The notes under the pieces were generated by a model. It saw only the letters and a program-made list of their open reading frames with translations. It had not been told where the DNA came from and searched no databases. A stretch of 64,000 nucleotides of DNA from Zanthoxylum bungeanum. Taxonomy: Eukaryota > Streptophyta > Magnoliopsida > Sapindales > Rutaceae. A program made the translations under genes and the position numbers. This document shows positions 3,090-64,000 of this stretch, one piece after another; position 1 is the first letter of the stretch; each line of letters begins with the position of its first letter. The stretch lies in NCBI GenBank assembly GCA_019454045.1, contig SKCR01025340.1, positions 124,001-188,000 of the forward strand, in the 5' to 3' direction.

Positions 3090-3099
3090 TCTCCCACTC
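3090..3099 (-). other. Polypurine tract
   Basis: Minus strand GAGTGGGAGA directly before the 3' LTR start, the usual copia plus-strand primer position and composition. It confirms minus orientation. Confidence 0.7.
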
Positions 3100-4517: not shown

Positions 4518-4549
4518 GAAAACAAATCCGGAGGTAGATTTTCTTTCAT

Positions 4550-5392: not shown

Positions 5393-5443
5393 GCGAATTG
5401 AGGTAAACCTTACAACAGGTGAAAAAATCTCTTCGTAGTCAAT

Positions 5444-6723: not shown

Positions 6724-6762
6724 TGGACCACAAATATCTGAATGAATTAATTGTAATGGAAA

Positions 6763-7330: not shown

Positions 7331-7407
7331 AGTCCACAAAGGATTAGATTCAGTTAGAAAGATTGAACTTGAAACACATATTTCATTTAAATATGCACGA
7401 AAGGTAT

Positions 7408-9001: not shown

Positions 9002-9611
9002 TGTTGGAAATTAATGTTGTTAATTATTTGGTGTTGTTAAATAACAACAATTAGTAATAATTTCATTTGGAAATTATTAAGTTAATTATTTGGTGTTGTT
9101 AAATAACAACAATTAGTAATAATTTCATGTTGGAAATTATTAAGTTAATTATGTGGTGTTGTTAAATAACAACAATTAGTAATGATTTCATTACTAAGTA
9201 AACAACAAGAATTGTTAATCAAATAATTAAGTAACAACAAGAGTTGTTAAGTGACAACAATTAGTAAAATGTTAAATGGGGAACATATGGTACACCCATG
9301 ATGGTAACTTTTTGGAAGGGTTAGAAAAGGTCATTATACATCTTAATAATGTGATTAATAGTAATCAATGCATGTGATTACATAGTGACTTGATTTCCCT
9401 CCTATAAATAAGATCATTTGCTTATTGAGTTAAGCAATCAATTAAGTTTGATTAAGAGGTCTCTACAAGCATAAAAAGTATGCAATTGTGTTGTGGTTAA
9501 TATAGATTTATTTCAATTAGCATGTAAATAAATCTATGACTAGTAATACATGTATGGTTAGATCCTAAGAGGACAAACATGTAAATATATTAGGGATTAT
9601 GTTTCCTAACA
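9002..9611 (+). repeat. LTR C, inverted relative to the copia genes
   Basis: 610 bp, TGTTGGAAATT...TTTCCTAACA. It is the reverse complement of LTR A (335-945), including the 62 bp repeats (9002-9195). For a minus-coded copia the opposite orientation is expected. It is followed by the TATGT target duplication. Confidence 0.85.
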
Positions 9612-10130
9612 TATGTTGAGTAGCCCTTTGCAAGGATCTTCGGTGGGCAGGTCTTGGATCGGTCTCCTGGGATCACACAGAAAGAGTTATTGCTGCAGCT
9701 GTTAAAAAAGTGTAGTTCAAAGGAGATGTTGAGCAAGCAGAAGTTGCGGCTATAATTTTGACCTTCAGTGTGCTAAGGAGGCGAGATTTATGTCTCTTAT
9801 TAGCGAATCATATTATTTTAAACCTAGTAAATTTGGTGTTTGGTACTTCAAGCAGTTCCAAAGAAATTTATTGGGTTATCTCTGATATCCAGAACACCGA
9901 TAGGGACCTTGAATGTTATAAGGTTCAGTTTAAATTAGGAAGGTGTAATGTTACAACTCAATTTTTTAGTGAAGTGGCGTGTAATTGGCCATGTTGTTTT
10001 TAGGTCAATGACCTTCCTGTTACTATTATTGTATTCTGTAATTTTACTTTTTTTCTTAATGAAGTTCTTGTGTTTTAAAAAAATAAAACACGCCCGGTTC
10101 ACTGAAAAAAAAAAGCAAAAAAAAATTGAA
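9612..10130 (+). mobile_element. LINE fragment, part 2 (3' end)
   Basis: Continues the LINE after the copia insertion (TATGT repeat at 9612-9616). No clean frame. It ends with A-rich tails (TTTTAAAAAAATAAAA near 10075 and further A runs to about 10128), as expected for the 3' end of a LINE. Confidence 0.75.
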
Positions 10131-41053: not shown

Positions 41054-42068
41054 ATCTCCCATTTGGCCTATAACCAATCACTCAAGTGTCCTAAACCCGA
41101 ACTATGTACGGGGCGCTCAGACTTTTGCTGAGAAACAACTTTCGTCAGCAGATTTGCAAAGTTATCATCTGATGCGATTTATTCGATCATTACATCGCCA
41201 CGATGTATGATCTCACGAATCAGATAAATCCGTCGAAGTACATACTTGGATCATTGATGAGACCGCGGTTCTTTAGCCTGTGCTGTAGCCCAGCTTAGCT
41301 GCTAACAGAACTATACCTAATCCAATTAGGATTATATAGATCCAAAAATGCTTCTTTTGCTGCCTCAGCTGCAGCAATGTTCCGCTCTTGTTGTTTATTC
41401 GGCAACACTATCTTGCTTGGAAGATTTCCAGCTCACTGTTCCATTATTCAAACTAAATACGTACCCTTATTGCAACTTACAGTCATTTTTTTCGGTTTGG
41501 AAACTTGCAGTGGTGAACCTAGTCACCTCAAGTTCTCCTTTCCCCATATTATCAGAAAGCATCCTTAGTTCGTCCAAGATAGTCAAAGATGTCCTTAACA
41601 TCAATCCAGTGACCATCACCTGGATTAGCCTGATTGTGACTCCATATGCTCAAAGCATATAAGACACCAGGTCACGTACATGTCTTTCAATGTACGAGTT
41701 CTCGAAGAGTGCCAACAACTTTTAGATCTAACCCAGTAGATTCTTATTCCTAGAATAAAGGTTGCCTCTCCCAAGTAGTCTATGGAGAATTTTTCATGAA
41801 AGCCAAGCTTTCACCGATTGTATTATAGGAATGTCATTTCCAAGAAATAATATATCATCATTATATTGGACAGTCACTGTCAGTGCGCTCCCACTAACCT
41901 TCTTATATACACAAAAATCTTTACCGTTTTGAATGAAACCATATACCATTATGATCTTATCAAAATGTTAGTTCCAAGAACGCAATGCTTGCTTCAATCC
42001 ATAAATGGATCGATTTAACTTCCAAACTTTGTTTGCATGTTTTTGGTACGACAAAATCGTCAGGTAGT
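41054..42068 (-). pseudogene. Copia 2 Pol: RNase H and 3' part of RT
   Basis: Minus strand, heavily mutated. Near 41075-41260 it shows the copia polyprotein end (SKYVLRRIYLIREI, DDNFANLLTK). Near 42000-42060 it shows the RT segment NRSIYGLKQA. Broken by frameshifts and stops and cut at 42068 by the Athila-type element; the rest of RT resumes at 51606. Confidence 0.75.
42064..42068. repeat. Target site duplication GTAGT (left)
   Basis: Repeated exactly at 51606-51610 after the right LTR. It defines the insertion of 42069-51605 into copia 2 RT. Confidence 0.88.
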
Positions 42069-43430
42069 TGACCGGCGTAAACACACACGTATAACGCAAG
42101 CGCACGTATCGTTCAAGTAGTATAAAAATATCGATCCCACGAGGACTTAATTCCTACTATTGTTATTAATTATTGAATCTATTTATTTACAGATATCTAA
42201 TTAAATGAAGAAGAGAATGATTGTTTGATTGGTTGAAAGTGATTTTACAAAATAAATAAAAAGACAAAAGAAAATACTAAGGAAAATAACAAAAGACACA
42301 AAGATCTAGGGTCGTGAATCATTCTAATATCATTTAAAAGATAAAGTGGTTATTTTATGTTTGTGTAATAAATCAGTTTACTAACCTGGAACACTAAATT
42401 ATGCAAAAGCCTCTGTCGATGGTCAGACGCAAATACCCAGTTTAACTCAATTGAACCATATGTCTATGTCAACCAAATTATCTGGATTCATTAAGTTTAA
42501 GTTCCAATTATGGCTACCCCCGCCCGACAGGTATATTCCTATCCTGTAAGGAAATCTATTAAAGGGTTATTTATCCTCAAGGAAGATCGTGGGCTATTAA
42601 GTCTAAGGCTGAAACCTAAAATCCCTATGTCTAGTTCATTTTAGATTTACCATATCAATCTTATTGGTGATCAGACAACAAGAAGCATTAAGCTTAAGAT
42701 TTAATAAATAAACTTTTAAATTACCCAAACTATAAAATAACCTCTTATAAACCGGTGATATTAAAATCATCACAACACAACCCCAGATAACTAACACATA
42801 ACTAGGACTAGTAAAGACATAAAAGTAAAAGACATAAAGTAAAGCTGAAAAGTAAAATACAATAAAATAAAATGCTAAGGTAAAAGGAATTACTTTTACT
42901 ACTACTAATTTAGATATCTCCCATAAAATAATATATAAACTTGTGATAAATTAACCAACCGACCAGTCTGGCGGTATCCTGATTAAGTCAAATTAAGTCC
43001 AACCAGCCATTAAGGCGGAACCAAAAATAAATTTACCAACCGACCAGTCTGGCGGTATCCGTGATTAGTCAGGTTTAATCAGATTAAAATTAAATTACCA
43101 ACCGACCAATATAGCGGTATCCCTTATTAAGTCAATATTTTAAATAGTTAATATATTATTTTTAAGGGAGATTAATCTAAATAGCAATAGTAGAAGAATT
43201 ACCTTTCACCCTAGCTGAGGAAATTACTTCAACATGGTGAATAGTAAAAACTGTAAAAAGTAAAAAGTAAAAATTAAATTACTATTATTACAAAACGTAA
43301 TTAAAATTATTTACAAAACTAAAAATTAAAACTAAAAAAAATAAAAAAAATAAAAATTCTAGAGAGAAACTCTCTTTTAGAGAGAATTCAAGAGAGAGAG
43401 AGGTGTGTTGAAATCTGAAATTTCGCGCTG

Positions 43431-43440
43431 AATTTATAGG
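43431..43440 (-). promoter_or_regulatory. TATA box, 3' LTR of LOG element 1
   Basis: Minus strand CCTATAAATT, followed by a CT-rich leader (CTCTCTCTCT), as in plant core promoters. The ACGT cluster starts about 65 bp upstream. Confidence 0.65.
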
Positions 43441-43505
43441 CAAAAATTCACTGTTCGCAGCGTCGCGACGCCAAGGACCTCAGCGTCGCGACACTGGATT
43501 TGTCG

Positions 43506-43980
43506 ACGTGGCACGATGAGAAGGCGACACGTAACAAGGCGGCTGACTGTTCAAAGCGACACGTGTCATGGCGGCTAAGACTCAATTATTATGATGACGT
43601 CATTGATGACGTCATGCTGACGTGGCGCTGACGTGGCGATGACATGGCGCTGGCGTGTGTTGCAATTGTCGGCACAATAGGATTTTGACACGTGGCGACA
43701 CGTGTCACGCTGTGATTGGCTGATGCTGACGTGGCATGTTGACTTCGTTGACCTTGTGACGTGGCTGATGACAAGGCGTGACACATGGCGAAGTTGACTC
43801 GTTGACCGCTGACATGGCTGATGACGAGGCGACACGTGTCAAGTCTGAGTGTCGGCAGCATATGATGTTGACACGTGGCATGGCGCACGTTAGCCGATTG
43901 GTTGTGATGGTGACACGTGGCACGGCGCATTTTAGCAAAGTCAAACTTCTCAAATCCTGATCAGTTGACCAGGCGCACGT
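43506..43980 (-). promoter_or_regulatory. Cluster of 16 ACGT-core elements in U3
   Basis: Sixteen ACGT tetramers in 475 bp, mostly as ACGTGGC (ABRE-like) or GACACGTGTC (G-box palindrome, three copies), mixed with TGACG and TTGACC/TTGACT sites. ACGT cores are bound by plant bZIP factors, some also by bHLH factors. About two would be expected by chance. The arrangement directly upstream of the TATA box suggests a regulated promoter. Confidence 0.75.
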
Positions 43981-44226
43981 TAGCTGATTCGGCGCATGCT
44001 GGGCGTCGCGACGCGGAAGGTCTGGGCGGCGCGACCCTGGAAATTACCAAAATGCCTTTTTTCGCCAATTTTCACTGTTTTGCTCCAAATCACCTCCAGA
44101 ATGTCCTAAAACTTTATTTATCTACAAAATAACACAAATCACATCAAAACATTCACAAAACTCAAGAAACTATACAAAATATTAGATTAAATGAGTGGGA
44201 AATAGTGATATAAATACCACTCATCA

Positions 44227-45544: not shown

Positions 45545-46197
45545 TTAAAGGTTAAGATCCAGATTAATTCGACGCCTCTTACCACGATCGTCCTCGGACC
45601 ATTTTATCTTTGAAAGGAGAGGGTCAACTTGTGGTTCATAAGCTACGAGTTGGTCAATTAGGTCCGGAGCAGTTCTGGCAGTGAAGAGGAGTTCTTTCAT
45701 AGGTTTCGACACGAACCCATTTCTCCGAGCATCATCAAGAAACACACAAAGAAAATCATAAAATCCATCAACGTTGAGCAGTCCAAGCGGTTTCTGGTGT
45801 ATATTCAGGTTCGCCTAAGATAGAACTATAAAAATTTCCTCCAATGTGCCCAAGCCACCTGGCAAAGCAATAAAAGCATCAGCACGGTTAATCATTTCTA
45901 CCAGTCGTTCAGACATACCTGGCACGATCAGTTCCTCTCCGTTTGACGAACCAATAAGATTGCCTCTGCCAAGGGTTTTGGGATGATTCCCAAAACGTGA
46001 CTGCCTCCTTCCTGTACAGCCTTTGAAACGATCCCCATAAGTCCGAGATTGCCTCCGCCATATATTAAGTGCATATTCCTTGCTGCTAAGACTCGACCTA
46101 ATTCCTGTGCTGCTTCTATGTATTGTGGCTTAGTTCCAACACTAGTACCGCAAAACACGCAGATGTTTTCAACTCGTCTTCTTGAAGTGGCTTCCAT
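45545..46197 (-). pseudogene. LOG: LOG-like cytokinin-activating enzyme carried by LOG element 1
   Basis: Intronless homologue of LONELY GUY, which releases free cytokinin bases from cytokinin riboside 5'-monophosphates. From the ATG at 46197 the frame shows ICVFCGTSVGTKPQY, the nucleotide-binding YGGGNLGLMG, then a 1-base deletion near 45960. After that follow PGMSER (the conserved Arg) and the family signature LPGGLGTLEE (near 45836-45868, with the catalytic Glu). A TAG at 45815-45817 replaces the Trp found in the second copy. The C-terminus is complete (KWSEDDRGKRRRINLDLNL) and ends in an LxLxL motif. Length about 215 codons, normal for LOG. Two lesions make it a pseudogene. Confidence 0.9.
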
Positions 46198-46269
46198 TTT
46201 TTTTTTTATGTATTTCTTTCTCAACTCTGGATGCCTTCAAAAGTGCAATGACAGGCTAAATTTATAGTA

Positions 46270-46280
46270 CCTGAAAAGGG
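46270..46280 (-). other. Candidate splice acceptor before LOG copy 1
   Basis: Minus strand CCCTTTTCAGG about 75 nt before the LOG ATG. The same site precedes LOG copy 2 (57619-57630). It could give a spliced subgenomic LOG mRNA, as proposed for env-like genes of Athila elements. Inference. Confidence 0.5.
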
Positions 46281-46654
46281 TGAGTAATAATAGCACTAAT
46301 ATCTTCCAAAGGACGATTGTTAACTAAACAACAAAATGAATCGTGAAGGTCAAAAAGTCTGGATCCTGTCTACGAAAATAAAGATAATTACAAAAGAAAA
46401 GCGAATCAAAGCAATAATTAAGGCAACGGAATTGTGTATGCAATACGCCACTTGCATAGTATAAATTCATTAGGATGTGTCTCAAGACTTAATTCTTTAC
46501 TCAGCCATCACAAATGAATTAGCTCTCTTTTTTTTTTTTTTGATTATCAAACACAATTCCTTCTGTATTAAAATGCTCCGTTTGTGCTTTTCTCTACAAA
46601 AATAACACACAAAATTAAAAAGTTCACACTATGTATACACAAAAGAGTTCAGAA

Positions 46655-46790
46655 GATAATACCTGGTCAGCTGAAATTTTACAGGAAAAATTACCGATAG
46701 GAAAAATTTATGTTCAATTTACGTTTTTTTACTTACCACGATCGATAATTGACCATTTTTTAGTGAAAATTTCGACAGAGTCTCCTCTAA
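46655..46790 (-). pseudogene. Second, degenerate trace of a LOG 3' end
   Basis: Aligns with the end of the LOG gene and its 3' flank at 45515-45620. Shared are ATAATACCTG, CTGAAATT.TACAGGAAA, the 13-mer CTTACCACGATCG and GACCATTTT. On the minus strand it still reads KKWSIIDRGK, matching KWSEDDRGK of the LOG tail. The body of LOG is not seen upstream. Confidence 0.6.
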
Positions 46791-48005
46791 AAACTCAAAA
46801 TTTCCCCAAATTCATCCTAAAACTAACACTTCAAAAATCACCACAAGGTCAAACTTCGCCCCCCAATTCTACAAATTCCATCGATCTGGCAGTTTCTAAA
46901 CTCAGAATTCAGCCAGTTATTCACCGCTAAACTTCCAAACTTCACAATCCTCCAATTTCAACAAAATCAACCACAAACTCATTCAAATTTTTTTTATCAC
47001 ACACCTAAATCTATCAAATGCCACAAATACTCCAATTCAACTCTTTGCCCCCACGACTACGAATCAAACTACCAACAATCCAACACTTCGTAATCCAATC
47101 CACAGTCATAATCAACCAAATCACAATTCAATTCTATTTTTCAGTTTACCCAATTACCAAATCAAATTTTTATCAAATCATTACCGTAAAATTAGTTTTG
47201 ATTATGGCAGTGAGGATACGGATTGGTTGTGACTTGGTTGTGGGTTGGTCTAGTGGCTCGGCTTCTGTGACTCTCGGTTTGGGTGTTGGTTGTCTCTCGG
47301 TGGTGAGGTTCACGGCAGATCTGGCTCGGCAAAGGTGGGTTTCTGGTTTCTGGTAGATCTCGTCTTGGGTTTCTGGTGGGGTGGCTGAACGGCAGTGATG
47401 ATGGCTTGGTTTTGACTCGGCGAAGGAAGGCTCGGTCACGGCAAGGGTGGTAATGGTTTCAGTTCAGCTTCGGTCGTGGATTTTGGCGATCTCACGGTGG
47501 CTGGACGGTTTGGTTTGGCGATGGTTGCGGCTGTGGATCTCGGCTGGCGAAGATTTGCTCACAGCAAGGATGGCTCTCGGTGGGTTTGCTTGCGGTGGTT
47601 GTTGATGCGGCTGGTGGATCTCGGTTTGGTTTGTGGTTGAAGTGGCTGTGATGGATCGTTGGGTGGTGGTTGAAGATGAAGAAGATGAAGAGTGAAAGGA
47701 GATACTGCCAGCACCCTGTTTTGTGTCTCTGATTTCGAGTCAGCGTCGCGACGCTGAAATTTTTTTTTTTTTTTTTTTTTGGCAAAACCATGTCTTGCGA
47801 CAGATAAATCCATAAGACTTCTTACTCTCGGCCGTCTTTTCTGGATCAACTTTGTATCTTCGTGTTTTGTCAAATTTTTATTTTGTGAAAATCCCGCTTG
47901 TACTGGCTTGCTTTGTCCTGATAAATTCCATTTTAATTTTTCCTGCAAAACTCACACACAAATTAAAAAGTTCACAAAAAAAAAAAAATAAATAAATAAA
48001 TTACA
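46791..48005. other. Base-skewed, unassigned segment of LOG element 1
   Basis: 47180-47700 is G/T-rich on the plus strand with imperfect repeats (GTGGATCTCGG, GGCTCGG, GGTGGTTG). It is followed by the perfect palindrome CAGCGTCGCGACGCTG (47741-47756) and a T run. Open frames occur on both strands because of the skew; none matches a known protein. Not part of a standard Athila body; it may be captured sequence. Confidence 0.4.
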
Positions 48006-48240
48006 ACAAATTGCATGGGTTGCCTCCCTGCTAGCGCTAAATTTTTCGTCTTCAGCCAGACGTGACTGAAATTTATCTGTTAAGGAGGTTTCAGTGTCGT
48101 TTTGGATGTCCTTAAAGACAATCCCGTGAGCGTTGCTTTTGAATGGTCTCTTCCAACGGTAAAGTGGCAGAAATAATTTTTTCTCATTCAATGCTCGTGC
48201 CACCTTTTTGACTTTTGTTGCTCCAGTGGTTCCTGAAAAG
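48006..48240 (-). pseudogene. Short accessory frame of LOG element 1
   Basis: Open minus frame (ARALNEKKLFLPLYRWKRPF...LAEDEKFSASREATHAI) preceded by a splice-acceptor-like CTTTCTTTTCAG near 48235. The end (SASREATHAI) matches the region just after integrase in LOG element 2 (SARMEATHAI at about 58440-58480), so it probably marks the old pol/3' junction. Function unknown. Confidence 0.45.
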
Positions 48241-48299
48241 AAAGAAATAAATTAGGAGGTCTCGTATGGTGCTTGACTTGGAATGGGAGTTCCATTCTG

Positions 48300-49326
48300 T
48301 CAAGCTTCTGGTTGATATCTTTGATTTGTACTCCCCAAAACAGTGATGTTTCTTCCTGAATGCTCTGGATCTTTATTAAGGTCAGATATTTGCTCTTCTA
48401 TTTGCTCTGCTTCTTGCTCCACCTTTTCTTCACAGATGTATTTTAAAATTTCCATATTCAGTTCTTCATCTGTCATTTGTGAAATACATGTTTCAAAATT
48501 TTCAACCTGAAAAGAAATGTTTGATTTTAGGTCTTCATCCTCTGATCTGGTTGAAATGATTAGCTCAGGTAGATCTTCATCAAACATTTGTGCAATGGAA
48601 TCTCCAAGATCTTCATTTTTAGGATACAGAATTCCATCCTCAATTTTTGATGCAGTTGGTACAAACAGCTTAGTTTCATCCTCGTCAGAATCTGAATAAT
48701 AGAAATCAAATCGAGACTTTGCCGGTTCGGGTTCCTGAACTGATACCTCTGGTTGTTGATACTGCTCAGCCTCCTCATCTGTTAAGGTGTCATTGTGGAT
48801 TTCTGGGTTCTCGAAGGCTTCATCAGTGTCATCTGAAACTGGTTCTTGAGGTATGATGTTCTGGTTTTCTATTAATTGTCTGATCTGATCTGTCATTCTC
48901 TGCATGGATTCTGCGTTACTCTGAATTTGTGCATCAAATCGAGCTTCCTGTTCTTTGAACATGTGAATTAATTGATCTTCCTCGGATGGTTCTGGTTATT
49001 GATAAGGATCGAATGAAGATGGTGGATAAGATGGAAAATGATGGTTCTGTGAAATATGTTGGCTCATCATACCATGAAGGATTCTGATAGTTCTGCCACC
49101 CTGAATTGTAGTTGTACTCGCAAAAATCGCTTGGGTGGTTACCATTACATATGTCACATCTCCACATTGAGTTCTGTTGAACAAAAGTAGTATTACTTGG
49201 TTCTGTCATCCAGTGATAGTCATTGGGTTGTACAACAGGCCTCAGAAAACCGGACTGTTGCTCCCAGATTTGGGGTGTATCTTCTTGTAAAGCTTGTGAT
49301 TTTTCAATCTCCCAGTAGTGTTCCAT
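48300..49326 (-). pseudogene. Partial Gag of LOG element 1
   Basis: Starts at ATG 49326, about 105 nt after the primer site. The first part holds a Cys/His knuckle (CDICNGNHPSDFC, CX2CX3HX4C) and Asn/Tyr-rich sequence as in Athila gag C-terminal regions; the capsid domain is missing. After a frameshift near 48970-49060 comes a coiled-coil segment (FKEQEARFDAQIQSNAESMQ) and a very acidic tail of about 160 residues (DSDEDETKLF, CEEKVEQEAEQIEEQ). No protease follows. Confidence 0.7.
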
Positions 49327-49430
49327 TTTTTAATCACCTGAAAACAAAAAATAAAAATTACAAAATAAAAGAAAGAAAATTAGATATAAGTAAATTAGAT
49401 AGTTTCAAAATTAACAACTCAAGAAATTAA

Positions 49431-49449
49431 GTCCCCGGCAACGGCTCCA
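49431..49449 (-). other. Primer binding site of LOG element 1
   Basis: Minus strand TGGAGCCGTTGCCGGGGAC, one change from the Athila/Tat-type site TGGCGCCGTTGCCGGGGAC found intact at 63869-63887. Six bases from the LTR. Confidence 0.85.
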
Positions 49450-50810
49450 AAAACTTGACCGCGTAAACACACACGTATAACGCAAGCGCACGTATCGTTC
49501 AAGTAGTAATAAAATATCGATCCCACGAGGACTTAATTCCTACTATTGTTATTAATTATTGAATCTATTTATTTACAGATATCTAATTAAATGAAGAAGA
49601 GAATGATTGTTTGATTGGTTGAAAGTGATTTTAAAAAATAAATAAAAAGACAAAAGAAAATACTAAGGAAAATAACAAAAGACACAAAGATCTAGGGTCG
49701 TGAATCATTCTAATATCATTTAAAAGATAAAGTGGTTATTTTATGTTTGTGTAATAAATCAGTTTACTAACCTGGAACACTAAATTATGCAAAAGCCTCT
49801 GTCGATGGTCAGACGCAAATACCCAGTTTAACTCAATTGAACCATATGTCTATGTCAACCAAATTATCTGGATTCATTAAGTTTAAGTTCCAATTATGGC
49901 TACCCCCGCCCGACAGGTATATTCCTATCCTGTAAGGAAATCTATTAAAGGGTTATTTATCCTCAAGGAAGATCGTGGCTATTAAGTCTAAGGCTGAAAC
50001 CTAAAATCCCTATGTCTAGTTCATTTTAGATTTACCATATCAATCTTATTGGTGATCAGACAACAAGAAGCATTAAGCTTAAGATTTAATAAATAAACCT
50101 TTAAATTACCCAAACTATAAAATAACCTCTTATAAACCGGTGATATTAAAATTCATCACAACCCCAGATAACTAACACATAACTAGGACTAGTAAAGACA
50201 TAAAAGTAAAAGACATAAAGTAAAGCTGAAAAGTAAAATACAATAAAATAAAATGCTAAGGTAAAAGGAATTACTTTTACTACTACTAATTTAGATATCT
50301 CCCATAAAATAATATATAAACTTGTGATAAATTAACCAACCGACCAGTCTGGCGGTATCCTGATTAAGTCAAATTAAGTCCAACCAGCCATTAAGGCGGA
50401 ACCAAAATAATTTACCAACCGACCAGTCTGGCGGTATCCGTGATTAGTCAGGTTTAAATCAGATTAAAATTAAATTACCAACCGACCAATATAGCGGTAT
50501 CCCTTATTAAGTCAATATTTTAAATAGTTAATATATTATTTTTAAGGGAGATTAATCTAAATAGCAATAGTAGAAGAATTACCTTTCACCCTAGCTGAGG
50601 AAATTACTTCAACATGGTGAATAGTAAAAACTGTAAAAAATAAAAAGTAAAAATTAAATTACTATTATTACAAAACGTAATTAAAATTATTTACAAAACT
50701 AAAAATAAAACTAAAAAAATAAAAAAATAAAAATTCTAGAGAGAGAAACTTTCTCTTTAGAGAGAATTCAAGAGAGAGAGAGGTGTGTTGAAATCTGAAA
50801 TTTCGCGCTG

Positions 50811-50820
50811 AATTTATAGG
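50811..50820 (-). promoter_or_regulatory. TATA box, 5' LTR of LOG element 1
   Basis: Same CCTATAAATT as in the other LTR, with the CT-rich leader downstream. In the 5' LTR it is the functional promoter position. Confidence 0.65.
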
Positions 50821-50885
50821 CAAAAATTTCACTGTTCGCGCGTCGCGACGCCAAGGACCTCAGCGTCGCGACACTGGATTTGTCG

Positions 50886-51360
50886 ACGTGGCACGATGAG
50901 AAGGCGACACGTAACAAGGCGGCTGACTGTTCAAAGCGACACGTGTCATGGCGGCTAAGACTCAATTATTATGATGACGTCATTGATGACGTCATGCTGA
51001 CGTGGCGCTGACGTGGCGATGACATGGCGCTGGCGTGTGTTGCAATTGTCGGCACAATAGGATTTTGACACGTGGCGACACGTGTCACGCTGTGATTGGC
51101 TGATGCTGACGTGGCATGTTGACTTCGTTGACCTTGTGACGTGGCTGATGACAAGGCGTGACACATGGCGAAGTTGACTCGTTGACCGCTGACATGGCTG
51201 ATGATGAGGCGACACGTGTCAAGTCTGAGTGTCGGCAGCATATGATGTTGACACGTGGCATGGCGCACGTTAGCCGATTGGTTGTGATGGTGACACGTGG
51301 CACGGCGCATTTTAGCAAAGTCAAACTTCTCAAATCCTGATCAGTTGACCAGGCGCACGT
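50886..51360 (-). promoter_or_regulatory. ACGT-core cluster, 5' LTR of LOG element 1
   Basis: Same 16 ACGT cores as at 43506-43980; the two copies differ by very few bases over this stretch. It lies upstream of the TATA box in the transcribing LTR. Confidence 0.75.
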
Positions 51361-51605
51361 TAGCTGATTCGGCGCATGCTGGGCGTCGCGACGCGGAAGG
51401 TCTGGGCGGCGCGACGCTGGAAATTACCAAAATGCCTTTTTTCGCCAATTTTCACTGTTTTGCTCCAAATCACCTCCAGAATGTCCTAAAACTTTATTTA
51501 TACAAAAATAACACAAATCACATCAAAACATTCACAAAACTCAAGAAACTATACAAAATATTAGATTAAATGAGTGGGAAATAGTGATATAAATACCACT
51601 CATCA

Positions 51606-53943
51606 GTAGTTGTAAAAACATCCTCCAAAGGTTTCCGTTTAAGGAAAGCGGTTTTGACGTCCAGCTGCCATATTTCATAAATGAAACATGGAGCTGTTGC
51701 AAGCATTATTCGAATGGATTTAATCATGGCAATGGGTAAAAAGTTTCGTCGTAATTGACATTATGTTGATGACGATACCCTTTCGCTACAAGCCTAGTTT
51801 TGTACGTTTATATGTTGACATCCATGTATGTCTTCCTTGAAGACTCATTTGCAACCAATAGGCACAATGCCTTCTGGTATATCAACCAATATCCAAACTT
51901 GGTTGTATATATAGAATCCATTTGGACTTCAGGGCACTTTGCCATAAAAGGAGTCAATATCTTATATCACATCCTCATACGTAGTCGGTCTAACTTCCTC
52001 AATAGGATTAACATCTACATGAGGTGAGATCATAAACCCATACCTCCCAGGTTGTTTTCTGACTCTCTCCGACCTACGCAGTTCTTGTATATTCGAAGAT
52101 TGTGGTACAGTTTCATCCCAGATGAACTGTTTGTGTTCCGTGAGGACTCGGTGCCTGGAACAGTATTACTCCGATTTTCATCGACTTTTACTTTCCTCCC
52201 ACTTACACTGCATATAGGAATTCTTCTTAGGAAAACCGCATGGAGAGCAACAATTACATTGTTATTTTGTGAGTTGTATAAGTACTATACTTTGGTTTCC
52301 CTAGGATAACCAATTATAAATAGGCACTTATTCGATTTGGGTTCAAGTTCGGTACTATCTAAACGTTCAGTATCCCAAAATCTTCAGGAATGAGAAACCC
52401 GGTTTCTTTCTTGTCCATGTCTAATGTAGAGTCTGTCCAACAGACTTTGACGAAACCTTATTCAAAATAAGTATTGCATTGTTTAATGTGTATCCTCAGA
52501 AGGATATTGGTAGCTCAGAGCGACTCATCATTAACCTTACTATGTCCAACAAAGTTTGGTTTCTTTGTTCGGACACACCACTTAATTGAGTTATTCCGAG
52601 AGGAGTCCACTATGAAAGAATACCATACTCTTTCAAATAATCGAGAAACTTATTGCTTAAGTATTTCCACCACGGTCCAATCGTGATGTTTTAATACTTT
52701 TTCCGGTCTGTTTTTCTACTTCGTGTCGAAACTCATTGAATTACTCAAAAGTTTCTGACTTGTGTTTCATAAGATACACATAACCATAACGCGATGCCAC
52801 ATCTGTAAAGGTTACGAAGTATTCATATCCACGTCTAGCCTAGCTAGACATGGGCCCACTTACGTCACTATGAACGAGGGCTAACAGATCGGTGGCACTT
52901 GTACTTTTACCAAGTAAAAGGTGTTTTAGGCATTTTGCCTAATAAACTAGATTCGTAGACATCATTAGAATTAGAATCAAATCCGTCCTAGTATCCAATC
53001 TTCGAAAGTGTGGATATACGAGTCCTGTTAATGTGTCCCAGACAACAATGCCATAAATAAGTCTCATCTGATTAATTCAGTTTGAGCTATTTGTTTGTCA
53101 TGTTATATGTTTGAGATTCATTTATATTCTAAATATAAATACTATTATTCACATCTAATGTGCTTATCTCAATATCATCTTTATAAACAAAACACTTAGT
53201 GTTCTAGAATATAAAGGTATACTCGCAACGGGTTAAACTAGATACAGAGATAATGTTCCTAGTCAAACTAGATACATTATAACAGTTTCCTAATTTAAGT
53301 ACATGCCCAAAGGGTAGTTCCAAAAATTAGGTTCCCACAGTCAAAACAACGACTCTCATCCCGTTTCTGACTCGCAGGTCGATCTCATTTGAAGCCAGTA
53401 TCATGATCAGCAGATCCCGCACATCAGTACATATCTACGTACCACATCCAGTATAAAATCCAATTTTAAAATCAGTAGTGGATACGTTTATTACAATAAC
53501 AAACATATCTGACGTCGAAGCCTTGCCCCACCCTTATTTCCTTCATGGATGCCTTGTCCACACGACAGTCACGCTTCCAGTGACCCCCGTTTACCACAGT
53601 TTAGGCAGAAATCTTGGGATATGTCTTTTGTCTTCCCAGAATACTGTAATGATTTTGCCTTTGCCCCTTTTAGAAGCTCTGGCTCTGCCTTCTTGAGCAT
53701 AGCCATCAACTCTCCAAGAGTTTTCTCTTGGTTCATAGTGAACCCGCCTCAGCATTCGGGCAGAGACTGTAAGATAAAATCTTTGGAAGTCTCGACCTCA
53801 TAGGTAATGCCCAGCTAACCTAGCTGTTCGATGTCAGCAATCATATGCGACACATAGTGTTCGATAGACGTACCTTCTGACATACGCGAGCGAAAGAGAT
53901 TCTTTTGCAATTTGTAATTCTAGGATCTAAGGTTAGATCTATG
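51606..53943 (-). pseudogene. Copia 2: Gag, integrase and 5' part of RT
   Basis: Resumes copia 2 after the Athila insertion. 51618-51665 reads WQLDVKTAFLKRKPLEDV (RT). Around 52750-52890 is the integrase core start (SDVSGPM, YEYFVTFTDVASRYGYV). Around 53565-53620 is a gag zinc knuckle split by a 1-base shift (CLNCGKRG then GHWKRDC). Frameshifts throughout. It is cut at 53943 by LOG element 2; gag N-terminus and 5' LTR lie outside the window. Confidence 0.75.
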
Positions 53944-54593
53944 TGACCGCGTAAACACACGCGTATAACGCAAGCGCACGTATCGTTCAAGTAGTATAAA
54001 AAGTATCGATCCCACGAGGACTAATACCTAAGCTATTAATTTTATGAGGTCAAATGATTACTAGTATCTAACAGGTTGTTTGATTGATTTGAAATGGTGA
54101 AGATTCTAAATTTAAAAACAAGTAAATAAAATTGCTTGAAAGTAGGTTTGAGAAAATTCAATATTAAAAACTATTTACGGTTGTGAATCTTTCCAATATT
54201 ATTTAAAGATGAAGTGGTTATCTTATAGTCGGGTAAAATATTGATTTATTAACCTGGAACACTAAATTATGTAAAAGCCTCTTCCGATGGTCAACTACAA
54301 ATATCCAGTATAACCCAATTGAACCATATGTCTATGTCAACCAAATTACCTAGATTCATTAAGATTAAGTTCCAATTATGGCTACCCTCCTCCAACAGGT
54401 ATATTCCTATCCTGTAAGGAAATCTATTAAAGGGTTATCTATCCTCAAGGAAGATCCTGGGCTATTGAGTCTAAGGTCTTAAACCTAAAATCCCTATGTC
54501 TAGTTCATTTTAAGTTTACCTAATCAATTTTATTAGTGGCCAGTTAATAAAAAGCATTAAGATTAAGACTCAATAAATAAATCTTTATATTAC
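53944..54593 (-). repeat. Partial 3' LTR of LOG element 2
   Basis: 650 bp matching the plus-sense start of the LOG element 1 LTR with moderate divergence. It stops at 54593 where TGTAGGCATTGC begins. Confidence 0.85.
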
Positions 54594-56831
54594 TGTAGGC
54601 ATTGCATTTTTGCATATCAGCCCGATGATGAGTCTCGTATGGAGACACTACCTCTTTAGTTGTGAAAGCCGCGAGAAATGGACGTTGGAAGGGTAAAGTT
54701 GGAAATTAGTATTTTGTCAGATTTAACTCGCTTGTTTCGCTTCGGGTTCGCTTGTTGGACCTCTGTTTTAAAACACACCAAACCCATTAAATCACAAATT
54801 AAATAATTAAAACATTTAAAATACATGTCACTAATTAAATTAAAACCAATTAAATTAAATCACATTCACCAATTAAATTAAACTTGAATTTAAATTAAAA
54901 TCTAATTAAATTAAAATTCCTAATTTAAATAAAACACATTTCTAATTTAATTAAATCACCTACCAATTTAAATAAATCATATCCTTAACTAAAAAGAATA
55001 AATCAAATCACTTCCCTTAATTAAAAGATTTCCTTATCACATACTAAATTAAAAGATATCCCCAAATAATACACAAATCCTATTCCTTCCCCAACAAGGT
55101 AAATCCCCTCCCTTGGCCTATAAAAAGAACCCTTAACCCACACATCCAAACCCTGGCTGGCTGGCAAAGACTCACAAAAAATAAAACGGAAAGAAAACAC
55201 CACTGCTCTCACGCCCTTGCCCTCACACCACACGGCCGAGCCCACAAACTCTCGCCTCAATACCTCACGCCAATCGCCTCAATACCTCACGCCAATTGCC
55301 ACCTTGCCTCACGCCAATTGCCACATTGCCTCACGCATCAACACAACACTCACGTTGCCCTCATCTAACGCCACGCCCACTAGCCACAAAACAATCAACG
55401 CCACATAGCCCTGCCTCAGCTCACATAACCAACACATCACTCACGTAACCCTCGCCCTGCACGCTCAAAAACCATGCACACAACGCCACACATTAGCCCT
55501 GCCACACAGCCTCATCAAGCCCACGATCCCCACGCTCACACACCTCACCGATTCAGCCCATCACGCCATCAACAGCCCCTTAGCCACCTATTGCCTTCAG
55601 CGCCTAAACAGACCACACCAAGCAACCATATCTTGCCTTCATTCATAAGCCCCTATCCCACATCGCCTAGCCTTCAACAGCCACGCCATTATCCCTCAAA
55701 TCAGCCCCTTTTGCTTCACGCTAGTTCACCAACAAAACCAGCCCAGTTCACACCTATATACCTCCCGAATTAACCCCAAAACTGCACCAAAACTCCCCAG
55801 AAAACTGCCCTAAAACCACCCTAAAACTACAGTAAAAAACTGCACAAAGTTTCCCTAAAACCGCAAGCCAATTAGCCTTCCAAATCGCCCAAAACAGTCC
55901 CCTAAATAAACAAAACAGTGACCTGAAATACAACATAAAACAGCAGCAAAACGGAGTAAAAAACAGCAGCCCGAACAGAAAAACAGCGAGGAAAGACGTT
56001 GAGTTGGTGAACCAAAAGAGTATCGGATCATTCACCCTTCCAACGGACGTGTAACGCCCCTTTCTTGAGACGACAAAAGAGGTTAGAACTGATGGCACCC
56101 TTTTATTTATATCTTTCATTTTATTTTATTTATCTTTGAAATACTATTGCATGAGAGTCGTTTGAGGCATGATGTGATTGTTGGATGAGCGGGATATGTG
56201 TCCCCTTTTGTGGTATATCGGATGGAAACCCGGACTTAAATTCCATAGCCGATTCCGAATGGACAGTAGTATGGTCTGCACTCGGGATACAATGCCACGT
56301 ACCACTTAAGATGCACGTATCTCGTCTCATCCAAATTTGTATTTGAGCATGTCATAGTTATAGGCCGTTTATTTATTATTTTAAGCATGAGTGAATTTAG
56401 TCTTGTTATTTAATTTTCAAAGCATGATTGTGTTATTTAGGCATGTTGTTTCTTCATTCTTTATGCATGATGTTTCGTTTAGTTTATTTTTATGTTTAAT
56501 TAGTTATTTGTTTACTTTGGTTTAATGGTTCAATATGCTCGTTGTGTTATATTGCGTGGAGTTATTTGGATGAAAGCATGTTAGATCTAAATACCCTTGA
56601 GCATGAATGTTGAATAGATTCGGTTAGTTTATTGCACAAATCATATCATCACAAGTGACATAAGTAAGGGACCAATCCGAACCCAACGGTTTGAGGTCTT
56701 CCCTTGCGAGGGGTGAGTACGGCCTTAAATCTTTATCCCGGTTCACACCGGGTGGCGACTCCATGATATTTCATACTTCCCAACTAGGCCGCGAGCCTGG
56801 AACAGCGTCGCCCAGGTTCTGTTGTCCTACA
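54594..56831 (+). repeat. LTR of a third retroelement family, plus orientation
   Basis: 2238 bp with inverted ends TGTAGG and CCTACA. TATA-like CTATAAAAAG at 55118. Downstream, about 55190-55990 is strongly C/A-rich and G-poor with repeats of CTCACGCCAATTGCC. Followed by its own primer site. Only this LTR and about 136 bp of interior are present. Confidence 0.8.
55118..55127 (+). promoter_or_regulatory. Candidate TATA box in the third-family LTR
   Basis: CTATAAAAAG, about 30 bp before CCCACACATCC, where the C/A-rich leader begins. Plus strand, agreeing with the primer site orientation. Confidence 0.55.
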
Positions 56832-56834
56832 GTC

Positions 56835-56852
56835 TGGCGACTCCACTGGGGA
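56835..56852 (+). other. Primer binding site of the third-family element
   Basis: TGGCGACTCCACTGGGGA, three bases after the LTR end. A different tRNA type from the Athila and copia sites in this window; similar TGGCGACTC-type sites occur in plant Ty3 elements. Confidence 0.75.
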
Positions 56853-56967
56853 TTTATAGAGAATTGGCCCCGAAATCATGTCTTGTGATGTGTATAATTT
56901 GTGCTTTAATTAATCGTTTCTATAGTGAGTTGAAAAGGGTGTAATCAAAGGCATTGTTAAGGCTAGG
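56853..56967 (+). other. Interior stub of the third-family element
   Basis: About 115 bp of leader ending abruptly at the LOG copy 2 junction near 56967 (shared bases resume at TTTATCTTTGAAAGG). A deletion joined this stub to the LOG gene. Confidence 0.6.
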
Positions 56968-57567
56968 TAATTTATCTTTGAAAGGATAGGATCAACTTGT
57001 GGTTCATAGGCTAAAAGTTGGTCAATTAGATCCGGAGCAGTTCTGGCAGTAAAGAGTAGTTCTTTCAAAGGTTTTGACACGAACCCATTTCTCCGGACCT
57101 CATCAAGAAACACACAAAGAAAATCATAAATTCCTTCAACGTTGTACAGTCCAAGCGGTTTCTGGTGTATGTTCAGGTTCGCCCAAGATAGCACTATAAA
57201 AATTTCCTCCAATGTGCCCAAGCCACCTGAAAAAAGTAATAAAAGCATCAAAACGATTAATCATTTCTATCAGTCGTTCAGACATACCTGGCACGATCAG
57301 TTCTTCTCCGTTTGATGGTTCAATAAGATTTGCCTCTGCCAAGGGTTTTTGGATGATTCCCAAAATGTGACTGCCTCCTTCCTGTATAACTTTTGAAACG
57401 ATCCCCATAAGTCCAAGATTGCCTCCGCCATATACTAAGTGCATATTCCTTGCAACTAAGACTCGACCCAATTCCTGTGCTGCCTCTACGTATTGTGGCT
57501 TAACACCAACACTACTACCGCAAAACACACAGATGTTTTCAACTCGTCTTCTTGAAGTGGCTTCCAT
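56968..57567 (-). pseudogene. LOG: LOG-like cytokinin-activating enzyme carried by LOG element 2
   Basis: Homologue of the gene at 45545-46197, same ATG context (MEATSRRRVENICVFCG). Patches in order: ICVFCGSSVGVKPQY, YGGGNLGLMG, PGMSER, then a 1-base insertion near 57229-57235 just before the active-site signature. In the shifted frame the gene continues (GGLGTLEE, SWANLNIHQKPLGL, LLFTARTAPDLIDQL) to SKI, where the third-family stub begins, so about 20 C-terminal residues are lost. The Trp codon is intact here and the 1-base deletion of copy 1 is absent, so the two copies decayed independently. Confidence 0.9.
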
Positions 57568-58504: not shown

Positions 58505-58975
58505 TTAGGCTGGATATGAAAGTGTGACACTTTCTTTTTGTCGCTCAAATGATTCTCCCCAGTAGTGTTTGACACGCTGACTGTTAACCTTGAATGTGTT
58601 GTTGGAATTGGGATCCAGTAATTCAACAGCTCCATAAGGTAAAACCTGAGTGATCACAAAAGGACCGGACCACATAGATTTCAATTTTCCAGGGAAAAGT
58701 TTCAACCTCGAGTTGTACAACAACACCTGCTGCCTTGGTTCCAACTGTCTGTGCACTATTTTTCGGTCATGCCATTTCTTTGTCTTTTCTTTGTATAATT
58801 TGGCATTCTCATAAGCCTGTAGATAAAACTCCTCCAATTCGTTGAGTTGATGAAGTCGTTTCTCTCCTGAAGCTTGTGAATCAAGATTCAACTTCTTTAG
58901 TGTCCAGTACGCCTTGTGTTCAAGATCAACTGGAAGATGGCATGCTTTCCCAAACACCAATCGATATGAGGACAT
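58505..58975 (-). pseudogene. Athila Pol: integrase C-terminal part
   Basis: 156 codons: [20 protein letters not shown], a helical linker, then the GPY/F-like module ([21 protein letters not shown]) typical of Ty3 integrases, ending at SYPA and a stop. In a different frame from the core at 59100-59765. Confidence 0.9.
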
Positions 58976-59099: not shown

Positions 59100-59765
59100 T
59101 CAACCTGTCCATTTGACTGTGGATGGTAAGCAGTGGCAACCTTGTGAGTAACTCCATATTTGGATAGGAGTGCATCGAAGTATCTGTTGTAGAAATGTGA
59201 GCCACCATCGCTGATGATTGCACGAGGTGTTCCAAACCGAGTGAAAATGTTCTTTTTTCAGGAATTTGATCATGACTTTTGAATCATTGGATGGCAGTGC
59301 AATTGCTTCGACCCATTTGGAGATGTAGTCTACAACAACCATGATGTACAAGTTTCCGAATGATGGAACAAAAGGTCCCATGAAATCAATACCCCATACA
59401 TCGAATATTTCCACTTCTAGAATGTTTTGCAACAGTCCTTCATTTCTCCTTGAAATATTCCCCGTTCTCTGGCACCTGTCACATTGGAAAGCAAAAAGAT
59501 AAGCATCTTTAAAAAGAGTGGGCCAGAACAAACCTGATTGTAGGACTTTGGCTGCAGTTTTGTTTCCGCTGAAGTGTCCGCCATATGGTGATGAATGACA
59601 GTGCTGCAAAACACTATTGACTTCCTCATGTGGAACACACCATCTCAATAGTTGATCAGCACACCGTTTGAACAGGTACGGCTCATCCCAGACATAATGC
59701 TTGACTTCTTTGAAGAATTTCTTCCGTTGCTGAGTTGTCCATTCCAACGGCCATTTTCCTGACAC
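59100..59765 (-). pseudogene. Athila Pol: integrase zinc-binding region and core
   Basis: Zinc-binding region HCHSSPYGGHFSGNKTAAK...CDRCQ (HHCC), then VWGIDFMGPF with the first catalytic Asp and YISKWVEAIALPSND. A frameshift at about 59250 (T run) breaks the frame before the second Asp; the remainder continues in other frames to 58976. Confidence 0.9.
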
Positions 59766-59905: not shown

Positions 59906-60235
59906 CTAGTTTTCTGTCTCTTTCCTGTCTCTGATCTCCACGGCAAATTCTTGCAGAAGAAGTATCCAACGGATCAATCTGGGTTTGGCATCTTTCTTCA
60001 TGATCAAGTATTTGATTGCTGAATGATCTGTGTAGACCACCACTTTGGGACCCAGCAGATAGGAGCGGAATTTATCAAAAGCGTACACAACTGTGAGAAA
60101 CTCATTTTCGGTGGTTGTGTAGTTGAGTTGAGCTTCATTCAGAGTTCTGCTGGAATAATAAATGGTGTGGAAAATCTTTTCTTTACGTTGTCCCAAAACT
60201 GCACCTACAGTAAAATCACCAGCATCGCACATCAC
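59906..60235 (-). pseudogene. Athila Pol: RNase H
   Basis: 109 codons with [18 protein letters not shown] (first Asp), [18 protein letters not shown] (Glu) and [12 protein letters not shown] (Asp), the Ty3 RNase H pattern. Ends at an in-frame stop near 59906 that in intact elements is read through (VADHLSRLE follows). Confidence 0.9.
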
Positions 60236-61570: not shown

Positions 61571-62065
61571 TTAAGTGTATCCATGGGATTGGCTCAGTAT
61601 TTGAACGATACTATCAACAACATCAACTCTGAAGCATTCTTCTTCCTTTTCATCGCTTGGGAATTTCATGGCTTTGAAAACATTAAAGGTAACTTCTTGG
61701 TCCTGCACTTTCATGGTCAGTTCTCCTTTTTGCACATCAATCACAGTTTTACCTGTAGCCAAGAATGGTCTCCCAAGAATGATAGGTATTTCTTTGTCTT
61801 CTTTTATGTCAAGGATGATGAAATCTGCTGGGAGAATTAGTTTGTCGACTTTGACCAGCACATCTTCAACAACACCTCTTGGAAATGCGAGTGTTCGGTC
61901 AGCAAGTTGCAATGAAACTGAGGTAGGCATTGCTTCTCCAGTATGCAGTTTCCTGTAAATAGAAAAAGGCATCAAGTTAACATTGGCTCCTAAATCACAT
62001 AAAGCCTTACCGATGTAATGTTCTCCAATAGTGCATGAGACAGTGAAACTGCTAGGATCTTTCAA
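61571..62065 (-). pseudogene. Athila Pol: aspartic protease
   Basis: 164 codons. The active-site region reads ALCDLGANVNLMPFSIY (Asp-Leu-Gly, the usual form in this clade), then LQLADRTLAFPRGVVEDVLV and ILGRPFLATGKTVIDVQKGE. It would process Gag-Pol. Open across the domain, so among the best-kept parts. Confidence 0.9.
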
Positions 62066-62587: not shown

Positions 62588-63784
62588 TCATATGCTGCTT
62601 GTTGCTTTTTGAACATCTCTGCAATCGATTCTTTCATTTTGGTTCTTTTTCAAACTCCTGGCTTTTGTTCTGTTGCTGGAATCCATGTGGTGGATAGTTT
62701 TTTTGCCCTGAATTGTTGCTCCATGAGAAATTGGGATGATTCCTCCACCCCGGGTTGTAGGTGTTGGAATATGGATTGTTCCCCTGTCTGTTGAAATTGT
62801 TGACATAATTCACCGTCTCTTCAGTTGGTTTAGTTCTGGTGCTCCTCCATATGGTGAACTTGTGGATCCAATGTTGCTTTGCATGCCGAGAGTCTCCATG
62901 AATTTGCATATTTGATCCAGTTTGGCACTGACTGCTGAATTGGCTCTAACTTCATAAATTCCAGCAATTCGTTGAATCATGCTCCTTTCTGTTGGCCACA
63001 AGGAATTGTTGTTGGCCATTTCTTTGATTAGGTCCCAGGCTTGATCTTCTTCTTTTGCCATCAAAGCTCCTCCAGCAGCATCATCAATTGTGGTTTTCAT
63101 TATTCCAGAAAGTCCATTATAGAATGTTTGGACTTGAAGCCATTTTGGAATCTCATGGTGAGGACATTTCCGGAGCAAATCTTTGTACCTTTCCCAAGCT
63201 TCGTAGAGAGTTTCTGATTCTTGTTGCACAAAGGATGGGATGTCATTCCTCAGCTTTCCGGTTATGGCTGGTGGAAAGTATTTTGCAAGAAATTTGGTGG
63301 CTAAAGTGTTCCAAGTTGTGATGGAACCTGCTGGTAGTGAATGTAGCCAAGCTTTAGCTCTGTCCTTCAAGGAGTATGGGAAAACACGCAATCTCATTGC
63401 TTCTTCAGCTTCTCGGTTGTAATTGAAAGTGCCGCAAACTTCTAGGAAGTTGTTGATGTGGGCATTAGGATCTTCAGTTGCATTCCCCCCAAACTGAACT
63501 GACTGCTGAATCATCTGAATGCATGTTTTGATGTCACCCGTATTTGCTGGTAAGGGAGGAAGTACAATGCAAGAAATGATTCTGTCAACCACCGGAATGG
63601 TTCTGTCTCGAATGGGAATTGGTGGTGCAACCTCCAAAGGTTCAGGTTCCATGTTGACTAAAGCTTCTTGGCCTTCTCGCCTTTCCCTTCTCAACTGTCT
63701 GATGGTTCTTTCAATTTCTGGGTCAAGCGGTCGGAGTTCAAAGCTTCTGGTTCGTCTCATGAAGTTTCTGAGAACCTGAAACAC
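62588..63784 (-). pseudogene. Athila Gag
   Basis: 62810-63784 is a 324-codon frame from ATG 63784: Arg-rich N-terminus, PPLPANTGDIKTCIQMIQQS, then the retrotransposon gag capsid fold (FLEVCGTFNYN, LKDRAKAWLHSLPAGSITTW, FLAKYFP, YEAWERYKDLLRKCPHHEIP). The C-terminal Asn-rich region (NRQGNNPYSNTYNPGWRNHP) is in another frame at 62634-62909, so there is a frameshift near 62830. ATG lies about 85 nt inside the primer site. Confidence 0.92.
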
Positions 63785-63893: not shown

Positions 63894-64000
63894 TGACCGG
63901 CGTAAACACACACGTATAACGCAAGCGCACGTATCGTTCAAGTAGTATAAAAAGTATCGATCCCACGAGGACTTAATACCTAAGCTATTAATTTTATGAG
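63894..64000 (-). repeat. 5' LTR of LOG element 2 (start only)
   Basis: TGACCGGCGTAAAC... identical in layout to 53944 and 42069. Runs off the right edge; its promoter region is not visible. Confidence 0.9.

Follow-up and report, generated by a model that had tools for sequence, protein, structure and literature searches.

A conserved LOG-family accessory gene in a putative Athila-type retrotransposon family of Zanthoxylum bungeanum, with a replaced ligand pocket and an added C-terminal tail

Extra open reading frames (ORFs) are common in the long terminal repeat (LTR) retrotransposons of plants, mostly without a readable function. The closest described counterparts of the locus treated here are Ty3/gypsy consensus elements of Citrus sinensis and C. 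clementina, and under a looser filter of Populus trichocarpa, that contain a YgdH/LOG domain (PMC9289625, which cites Steinbauerova et al. 2011). Other comparable systems are the env-like and extra ORFs of Athila elements, which lie in sense between pol and the 3' LTR in elements that have no second RNase H before the integrase (PMC7264820, PMC6317226, in their available parts), and orchid Gypsy elements in which an AlkB m6A demethylase is the fixed enzyme cargo of a Ty3/gypsy lineage (PMC9289625). Here, we describe a homologue of LOG, the cytokinin-activating enzyme of plants, in two adjacent minus-strand LTR retrotransposons within a 64,000-nucleotide stretch of the 3.96-Gb genome of Zanthoxylum bungeanum (contig SKCR01025340.1, positions 124,001 to 188,000 of the forward strand; hereafter the window). 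Each element carries one intronless copy.

The Zanthoxylum elements are like those of Citrus and Populus in having a LOG-family domain within a plant Ty3/gypsy element, and they perhaps belong to the same ancient lineage, as Populus proteins fall in the same clade; they differ in what can be said of them, since the available part of PMC9289625 states only the presence of the domain and does not treat its pocket, tail, selection, copy number, or non-autonomous carriers. In contrast to the Athila ORFs, the protein here has a host-derived enzyme fold and is neither a transmembrane env-like protein nor Athila ORF-1 (as these are described in the available parts of PMC7264820 and PMC6317226). The orchid elements carry a different enzyme, were found in Phalaenopsis only in that screen, and have a cargo with activity shown in vitro (PMC9289625, available part). 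Compared to the plant phosphoribohydrolases LOG3 and LOG8, the element protein shares the fold, the PGGxGTxxE motif, and the catalytic Arg and Glu, whereas it is intronless, has a replaced pocket and a basic stretch plus LxLxL tail, and forms a separate clade.

The gene has a constant position in the element, lacks introns, occurs in independent insertions, is under purifying selection, and encodes a protein with the catalytic pair retained, the pocket replaced, and a tail added. We propose, with a probability of roughly 0.5, that LOG is a conserved accessory gene of an Athila-type family and that its product would be a nuclear, nucleotide-binding protein that recruits TOPLESS and does not use cytokinin ribotides. 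According to this proposal, an intronless LOG gene would have been taken up long ago and passed to autonomous and non-autonomous members as an accessory ORF in sense between the integrase and the 3' LTR. The product may act in the nucleus as a dimer with the LOG fold; its ligand, which it would still bind and perhaps hydrolyse, would be a nucleotide other than the cytokinin ribotides of host LOGs, while the C-terminal tail of the protein, which resembles the ethylene-responsive element binding factor-associated amphiphilic repression (EAR) motif, could recruit TOPLESS-type corepressors. The element would thereby alter host transcription in the cells where it is transposing.

The two copies in the window are as follows:

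45545 to 46197, minus strand: LOG copy 1, first residues MEATSRRRVENICVFCG, C-terminus KRRRINLDLNL, then a stop at 45545
56967 to 57567, minus strand: LOG copy 2, with a frame change near 57237 and the final ~18 codons lost

Both are on the sense strand of their own element. Copy 1 has a frame shift between ~45952 and 45979 (near 45960) and a TAG at 45815 in place of the conserved Trp128 codon; it was recognised through its similarity to copy 2, of which both open pieces match the LOG/'lysine decarboxylase' family in Pfam. Arabidopsis LOG3 matches even the broken copy-2 frame with an expectation value (E) of 4.1e-27, and a genome search with copy 2 gave at least 150 scored matches (the best 150 of 82,974 first-look candidates), so the similarity is not due to chance. 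The observation in the initial annotation that neighbouring elements hold intronless sense-strand LOG homologues is thus confirmed, including the lesions it placed in each copy, and copies of the family stem from independent insertions. Whether the frame changes are true lesions, as was supposed, is less certain; they are present in the sequence, but many frameshifts in the family may be assembly errors (discussed below).

LOG is a fixed extra ORF of this family at a constant place and not a chance transduction. Because picking copies by LOG score biases the ratio of nonsynonymous to synonymous substitutions per site (dN/dS), a further sample was drawn with the C-terminal region of the integrase as its anchor: from the 150 best matches to this region (of 56,353 candidates), 40 loci were taken, and the 761 bases lying 880–1640 bases downstream of the integrase end were fetched for each. 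LOG sequence occurs in 39 of these 40 loci, at 0.88–1.64 kb downstream, a fraction that holds for the part of the family to which the second window element belongs, since the anchored loci are its close relatives (93–96%). Coverage exceeds 600 of the 654 LOG bases in 37 loci, is partial in L075 and L078, and is nil in L062. This lends support to the earlier proposal of carriage by an Athila-type lineage at the place where env-like genes sit.

Members with an uninterrupted frame, such as the initial annotation had thought probable for the ancestor, are numerous. A search with the Pfam LOG family, of which the best 150 of 47,331 first-look candidates were kept and which favours intact copies, returned 147 matches with no stop within the match. 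All 20 copies fetched from this set have stop-free frames of 212–232 codons, some without a usual start, and 11 of the 20 end in INLDLNL. The first genome search, having used the broken copy 2 as query, favoured copies with the same frame change; its matches were kept out of the main selection tests, and nine long ones supplied nine further regions of 19–21 kb each. LOG is on the element sense strand in all nine, in three layouts: gag-pol plus LOG; gag, protease, and integrase end plus LOG; and post-gag ORF plus LOG. Five of the ten regions yielded a matching pair of target-site duplications, all different (ACTAC in the first window element, then CCCTT, GCTAG, GTTAT, and GTCAT); no matching pair was read in the other five. 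One segmental duplication as the source of the copies, which had been named as a possible refutation, is ruled out by these five insertions with five distinct 5-bp duplications.

The absence of introns sets the element gene apart from the host genes. A 39-residue LOG3 probe gave 149 genome matches, of which all 30 host-type matches stop at residue 35–37, at the PGG motif, and the 119 lower-scoring element-type matches read through; from these alignments, an intron lies at the PGG motif in host LOG genes. At two host loci (L089 and L090), the gene was recovered in six matched blocks, one of which spans an intron with stops, so host LOG probably has about seven exons. The host exons are most similar to LOGs from several angiosperm families that are not closely related. 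The host coding ends past the last block read ENEQLGHTPKFEISR (L090) and EMEQLDYSQEYDINIISR (L089), with no LxLxL. Introns in the host genes and none in the element copies are what RNA-level capture predicts, in agreement with the route first suggested.

A FastTree phylogeny was built from 149 proteins: 81 tailed and 18 untailed matches to the element protein, 4 from this genome, 22 LOG3-type, 18 LOG8-type, and 6 bacterial. In it, all element-type proteins group together (support 0.91), apart from the host LOG clade (0.998). The host LOGs sampled were of the LOG3 and LOG8 clades, the six bacterial outgroup proteins fall into more than one group once the tree is rooted, and the position of the root could be affected by long branches. 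Among the best 120 of 7,872 relatives, proteins of Populus, Xanthoceras, Paulownia, Reevesia, and Diplodiscus have identities of 50–59%, and others reach 89%. Judged from these similarities, the LOG cargo is old, with relatives in rosids and an asterid, and being spread across plant families it is no local curiosity. Among 23 viral loci and the best 80 prokaryote loci (six of which served as outgroup), none is plant-element-like, judged by identity and title only.

The pocket residues can be compared to those proposed for the LOG of Corynebacterium glutamicum, for which the available part of PMC4979012 names Arg99 and Glu122 as the putative catalytic residues, Met96, Lys100, and Glu121 as holding the adenine, and Met96, His97, Lys100, Glu125, and Trp129 as the proposed site of the prenyl group, these last being identical in Arabidopsis LOG3 and rice LOG. 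The element protein has the LOG fold and the nucleotide-phosphate motif PGGxGTxxE, and 93 of 103 element-clade proteins retain both catalytic residues; Arg is kept in 78 and Glu in 79 of the 81 tailed proteins, and Glu in 18 of 18 untailed ones. In the 81 tailed proteins, the Lys100 equivalent is Leu, Ile, or Met in 80, the Glu125 equivalent is replaced in 80, and the His97 equivalent is kept in 15. The Lys100 and Glu125 equivalents are both replaced in 80/81 tailed proteins, 13/18 other clade members, and 4/4 proteins of this genome, as against 0/40 host proteins (a random sample of 240 fetched) and 0/6 bacterial ones; His, Lys, and Glu are kept in all 46. Wherever the codon is readable in the anchored copies, the His97 equivalent is Ser (36/36), Lys100 is Leu (35/35), Glu125 is Ile (37/37), and Trp129 is Trp (37/37), so that of these four only Trp is kept. 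Both Lys and Glu are kept in 6 of 99 database clade proteins, five of the six without LxLxL, so the change of pocket seems to be younger than the clade itself. Five proteins (P0032, P0034, P0035, P0069, and P0112, the last two from Xanthoceras) retain the pocket of host LOGs and have KRRRLD or KKRRLA at the C-terminus, with no LxLxL; they are possible intermediates.

It could nevertheless be that the element protein still activates cytokinin in cells where the element is active, e.g., meristems, and so favours the cells that form gametes. This would agree with the retained fold and catalytic pair, with strong purifying selection, and with a predicted structure of one native open protein (mean pLDDT, the predicted local distance difference test, of 86; confident save for residues 1–5 and 204–217) whose best match is Arabidopsis LOG3 and whose closest solved structures are LOG3 and LOG8. 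We regard it as doubtful, as most of the clade has other residues in place of the His97, Lys100, and Glu125 that are invariant in the 40 host and 6 bacterial LOGs compared, a new conserved tail has been added, and alanine changes tested in the C. glutamicum enzyme nearly abolished activity with the exception of S19A (PMC4979012, whose available part does not itemise the residues). The suggestion of the initial annotation that these elements are a mobile source of a cytokinin-producing enzyme is accordingly not supported. With both the hormone-binding pocket and the tail changed, any manipulation of the host would probably run by a route other than cytokinin.

The tail is the second feature that distinguishes the element protein. 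Of the best 120 element-type matches, 90 have a C-terminal LxLxL with neighbouring basic residues before it, compared to 0 of the best 120 LOG3-type and 0 of the best 120 LOG8-type matches. In the 91 of 99 clade proteins with comparable ends, Leu occurs at -5, -3, and -1 in 80, 83, and 81, and the entropy of these columns is 0.75, 0.54, and 0.70 bits versus 1.82 and 2.18 bits at -4 and -2; this alternation of Leu and variable positions is what selection for LxLxL predicts. The tail is predicted to be disordered (pLDDT <50) atop a confident LOG fold. At the level of the motif, it has the sequence of an EAR-type motif (LxLxL or DLNxxP), a class of repression motifs that are often C-terminal and interact with TOPLESS-type corepressors (PMC9956375, available part). 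The pathogen effectors HaRxL21 and Jsi1, as described in the available parts of the sources, offer a parallel: foreign agents that bind TOPLESS by means of a short EAR-like motif, C-terminal in HaRxL21. Unlike these, the motif here belongs to a protein with the LOG fold that a transposable element encodes, and TOPLESS binding is predicted from the motif.

The protein might instead be a non-enzymatic structural or scaffold part, for instance a particle chaperone that binds nucleotides or a protein that is env-like in position only, with LxLxL as a packaging or oligomerisation signal. The env-like position, the replacement of the catalytic Arg by Gln in a minority of the clade, and the persistence of LOG along with gag-end ORFs in non-autonomous members are all consistent with such a role. 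We consider it unlikely, given the near-universal catalytic Glu (79/81 and 18/18) and a basic stretch plus LxLxL that suggests repression in the nucleus rather than packaging.

The element LOG is under purifying selection. In the anchored sample, reduced to 37 copies (666 pairs) by setting aside the three loci with partial or no LOG, mean dN is 0.030 and mean dS 0.177, a ratio of 0.17. The pooled ratio of nonsynonymous to synonymous differences (pN/pS) comes to 0.190; its codon bootstrap interval, 0.136–0.252, serves as a guide only because the pairs are not independent. Mismatches at codon positions 1, 2, and 3 are 0.050, 0.020, and 0.108. The top 20 Pfam copies give a pN/pS of 0.21, so that the anchored ratio is lower, not higher. 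Close pairs (dS <0.05, n = 20) have a ratio of 0.27 and distant pairs 0.16; a difference in this direction is expected if active lineages are under selection that is relaxed once a copy has inserted. In five copies lacking pol, two of which are near-identical neighbours, pN/pS is 0.23, which hints that LOG is maintained in non-autonomous members too; recombination with full elements could yield the same ratio. Two neighbouring post-gag/LOG copies on C39667 (L017 and L018) have stretches 97.5% identical over 7 kb, in an arrangement that resembles an LTR-internal-LTR-internal-LTR array from unequal recombination.

Frame changes in many copies, including both in the window, could be taken as signs that LOG is a neutral passenger, captured once and now decaying. 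We reject this as very improbable, for it is contradicted by a pN/pS of 0.19 in a sample not picked by LOG, by pocket and tail residues that are near-invariant, and by related proteins in several plant families; neutral decay without an intact member, a further refutation foreseen at the outset, was thus not found. Moreover, the 37 anchored copies contain 97 frameshifting indels but 2 in-frame stops, which suggests that many of the frameshifts may be assembly indel errors rather than lesions. One-base indels lie beside a run of at least three in 29 of 82 cases (0.354, versus a background of 0.347), and since they are not enriched at homopolymers it is the shortage of stops that carries this explanation. 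From the indel excess in L049–L088, the assembly probably holds many one-base indel errors.

That the copies are a host gene family, i.e., LOG retrocopies that came to lie near elements by chance, as might be implied by Populus and other plant genomes in which LOG homologues with similar tails are annotated like any other gene, is exceedingly improbable and is contradicted in this genome by the constant in-element position, with the near-whole gene in 37/40 anchored loci inside the 761 bases that start 0.88 kb past the integrase end, the same strand in 9/9 other regions, and LOG between LTRs flanked by target-site duplications.

Several observations weigh against the proposal of a nuclear, TOPLESS-recruiting protein that does not use cytokinin ribotides. 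LxLxL is short and stretches rich in Lys and Arg are common, TOPLESS binding is assigned here by motif, and certain LxLxL motifs do not bind TOPLESS (an example is given in the available part of PMC9956375). All but one of the 37 anchored copies share the same final five codons, and because these do not vary, selection on LxLxL is unmeasurable within this genome. The prenyl-site roles of Lys100 and Glu125 derive from superposition in the bacterial LOG (PMC4979012, available part), and Lys100 also contacts the adenine; a protein that lacks it could be wholly inactive. The catalytic Arg has become Gln in 3/81 tailed and 6/18 untailed proteins and in 2/37 anchored copies. Among 13 further copies, three have a deviating residue at one pocket position, in addition to the stop of copy 1 in the window. 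The frame is undisturbed in only 6 of the 37 anchored copies. Finally, the 'element-type' proteins of other species are named by sequence similarity, their placement inside elements having been read in this genome alone. A broader version of the proposal, in which the protein would be an element-encoded EAR effector across eudicots that has swapped cytokinin for another nucleotide ligand, recruits or disarms TOPLESS through its tail, and is kept even in pol-less elements, is a tentative possibility.

As far as our searches reach, four points are new: the replaced pocket residues, the tail of basic residues plus LxLxL, the test of selection on anchored copies, and the carriers without pol. In the open-licence PMC literature, including PMC11963269, PMC13317346, and PMC11728184, no earlier report of the pocket replacement or the tail was found. 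The description of LOG as unusual cargo needs qualifying, given that the cargo is old and has relatives in several plant families and that LOG/YgdH in Ty3/gypsy elements is already in print. In this case an extra ORF has a known fold, a pocket change, a short interaction motif, and many open copies. Binding of the tail to TOPLESS would mean that transposons steer transcription in the host through protein mimicry, and activity of the enzyme on another nucleotide would reveal what the element needs to consume or sense. There is also a warning for annotation, in that some plant 'LOG' genes may belong to transposons and have no part in making cytokinin.

Element 1, which carries copy 1, is a complete insertion with LTRs that are 98.7% identical (42069–44226 versus 49456–51605) and a 5-bp target-site duplication on both flanks (ACTAC on the element strand, GTAGT on the plus strand):

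42064 to 42068, no strand: left target-site duplication, GTAGT on plus
42069 to 44226, minus strand: 3' LTR, 98.7% identical to 49456–51605
48300 to 48962, minus strand: post-gag ORF, 220 aa, without a Pfam match
48934 to 49326, minus strand: gag C-terminal ORF, 130 aa, with a knuckle-like CxxC...H...C motif by eye and without a Pfam match
49431 to 49449, minus strand: primer binding site TGGAGCCGTTGCCGGGGAC, a few bases past the 5' LTR
49456 to 51605, minus strand: 5' LTR, from the LTR comparison
51606 to 51610, no strand: right target-site duplication, matching the left side

The primer binding site may correspond to the complement of the tRNA-Asp 3' end; Athila elements use primers other than tRNA-Met, tRNA-Asp among them. 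As only the gag-end and post-gag ORFs lie upstream of LOG, element 1 is a non-autonomous derivative, and comparison of the RNase H and integrase of element 2 with element 1 found no match. LOG was initially placed 3' of gag/pol in both elements; this holds for element 2 and not for element 1. The post-gag ORF and LOG of element 1 are separated by ~2.1 kb (46200–48300), and in four other post-gag/LOG copies by ~0.74–0.78 kb.

Element 2 carries copy 2 and has the gene order gag, protease (a weak match), RNase H, integrase, and then LOG. Its 3' side is broken by other sequence from ~54594 to 56966, leaving an LTR remnant:

53944 to 54593, minus strand: 3' LTR remnant, 81% identical to the element 1 LTR
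58505 to 58975, minus strand: integrase C-terminal region, named by position, without a Pfam match
59100 to 59765, minus strand: integrase, with an H2C2 zinc domain and an rve core under the Pfam cut-off
59906 to 60235, minus strand: RNase H, 140 nt upstream of the integrase
61571 to 62065, minus strand: aspartyl protease, weak, under the Pfam cut-off
62810 to 63784, minus strand: gag, PF03732, E 1.8e-21
63894 to 64000, minus strand: start of the 5' LTR, which runs on past the window end (locus L009)

Within the broken 3' end, a plus-strand LTR-end-like sequence at 56655–56860 is followed by TGGCGACTCCACTGGGGA, which resembles a primer binding site of another Ty3/gypsy lineage.

By exclusion, the family appears to be an abundant Athila-type Ty3/gypsy family (non-chromovirus OTA). 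The order of the domains scanned, gag-protease-RNase H-integrase, with RNase H upstream of integrase, agrees with the gag-protease-RT-RNase H-integrase order of Ty3/gypsy (RT, reverse transcriptase). The RNase H and integrase are separated by ~140–145 nt in all six elements with both (the window element, L011, L021, L024, L025, and L027), and a gap of only ~140 nt leaves no room, at this position, for a second, archaeal-type RNase H. Such a second RNase H defines the sister clade Tat, to which the angiosperm elements Ogre and Retand that carry it belong (PMC6317226, available part). With Ogre and Retand excluded by its absence there, Athila would be the remaining OTA lineage.

Other repeats occur elsewhere in the window. 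A tandem array at 13497–35051 consists of three to four copies of a ~6,243-bp unit, partly 100% identical, and no large listed ORF accounts for it. At 334–9612, Copia-like pol ORFs (4116–8274, minus strand) lie between arms at 334–806 and 9141–9612 that are 96–97% identical; the arms are inverted, not direct, which is odd for an LTR element. A 279-aa ORF at 36002–36841 has a BED zinc-finger match under the Pfam cut-off and perhaps represents a DNA transposon or a domesticated gene.

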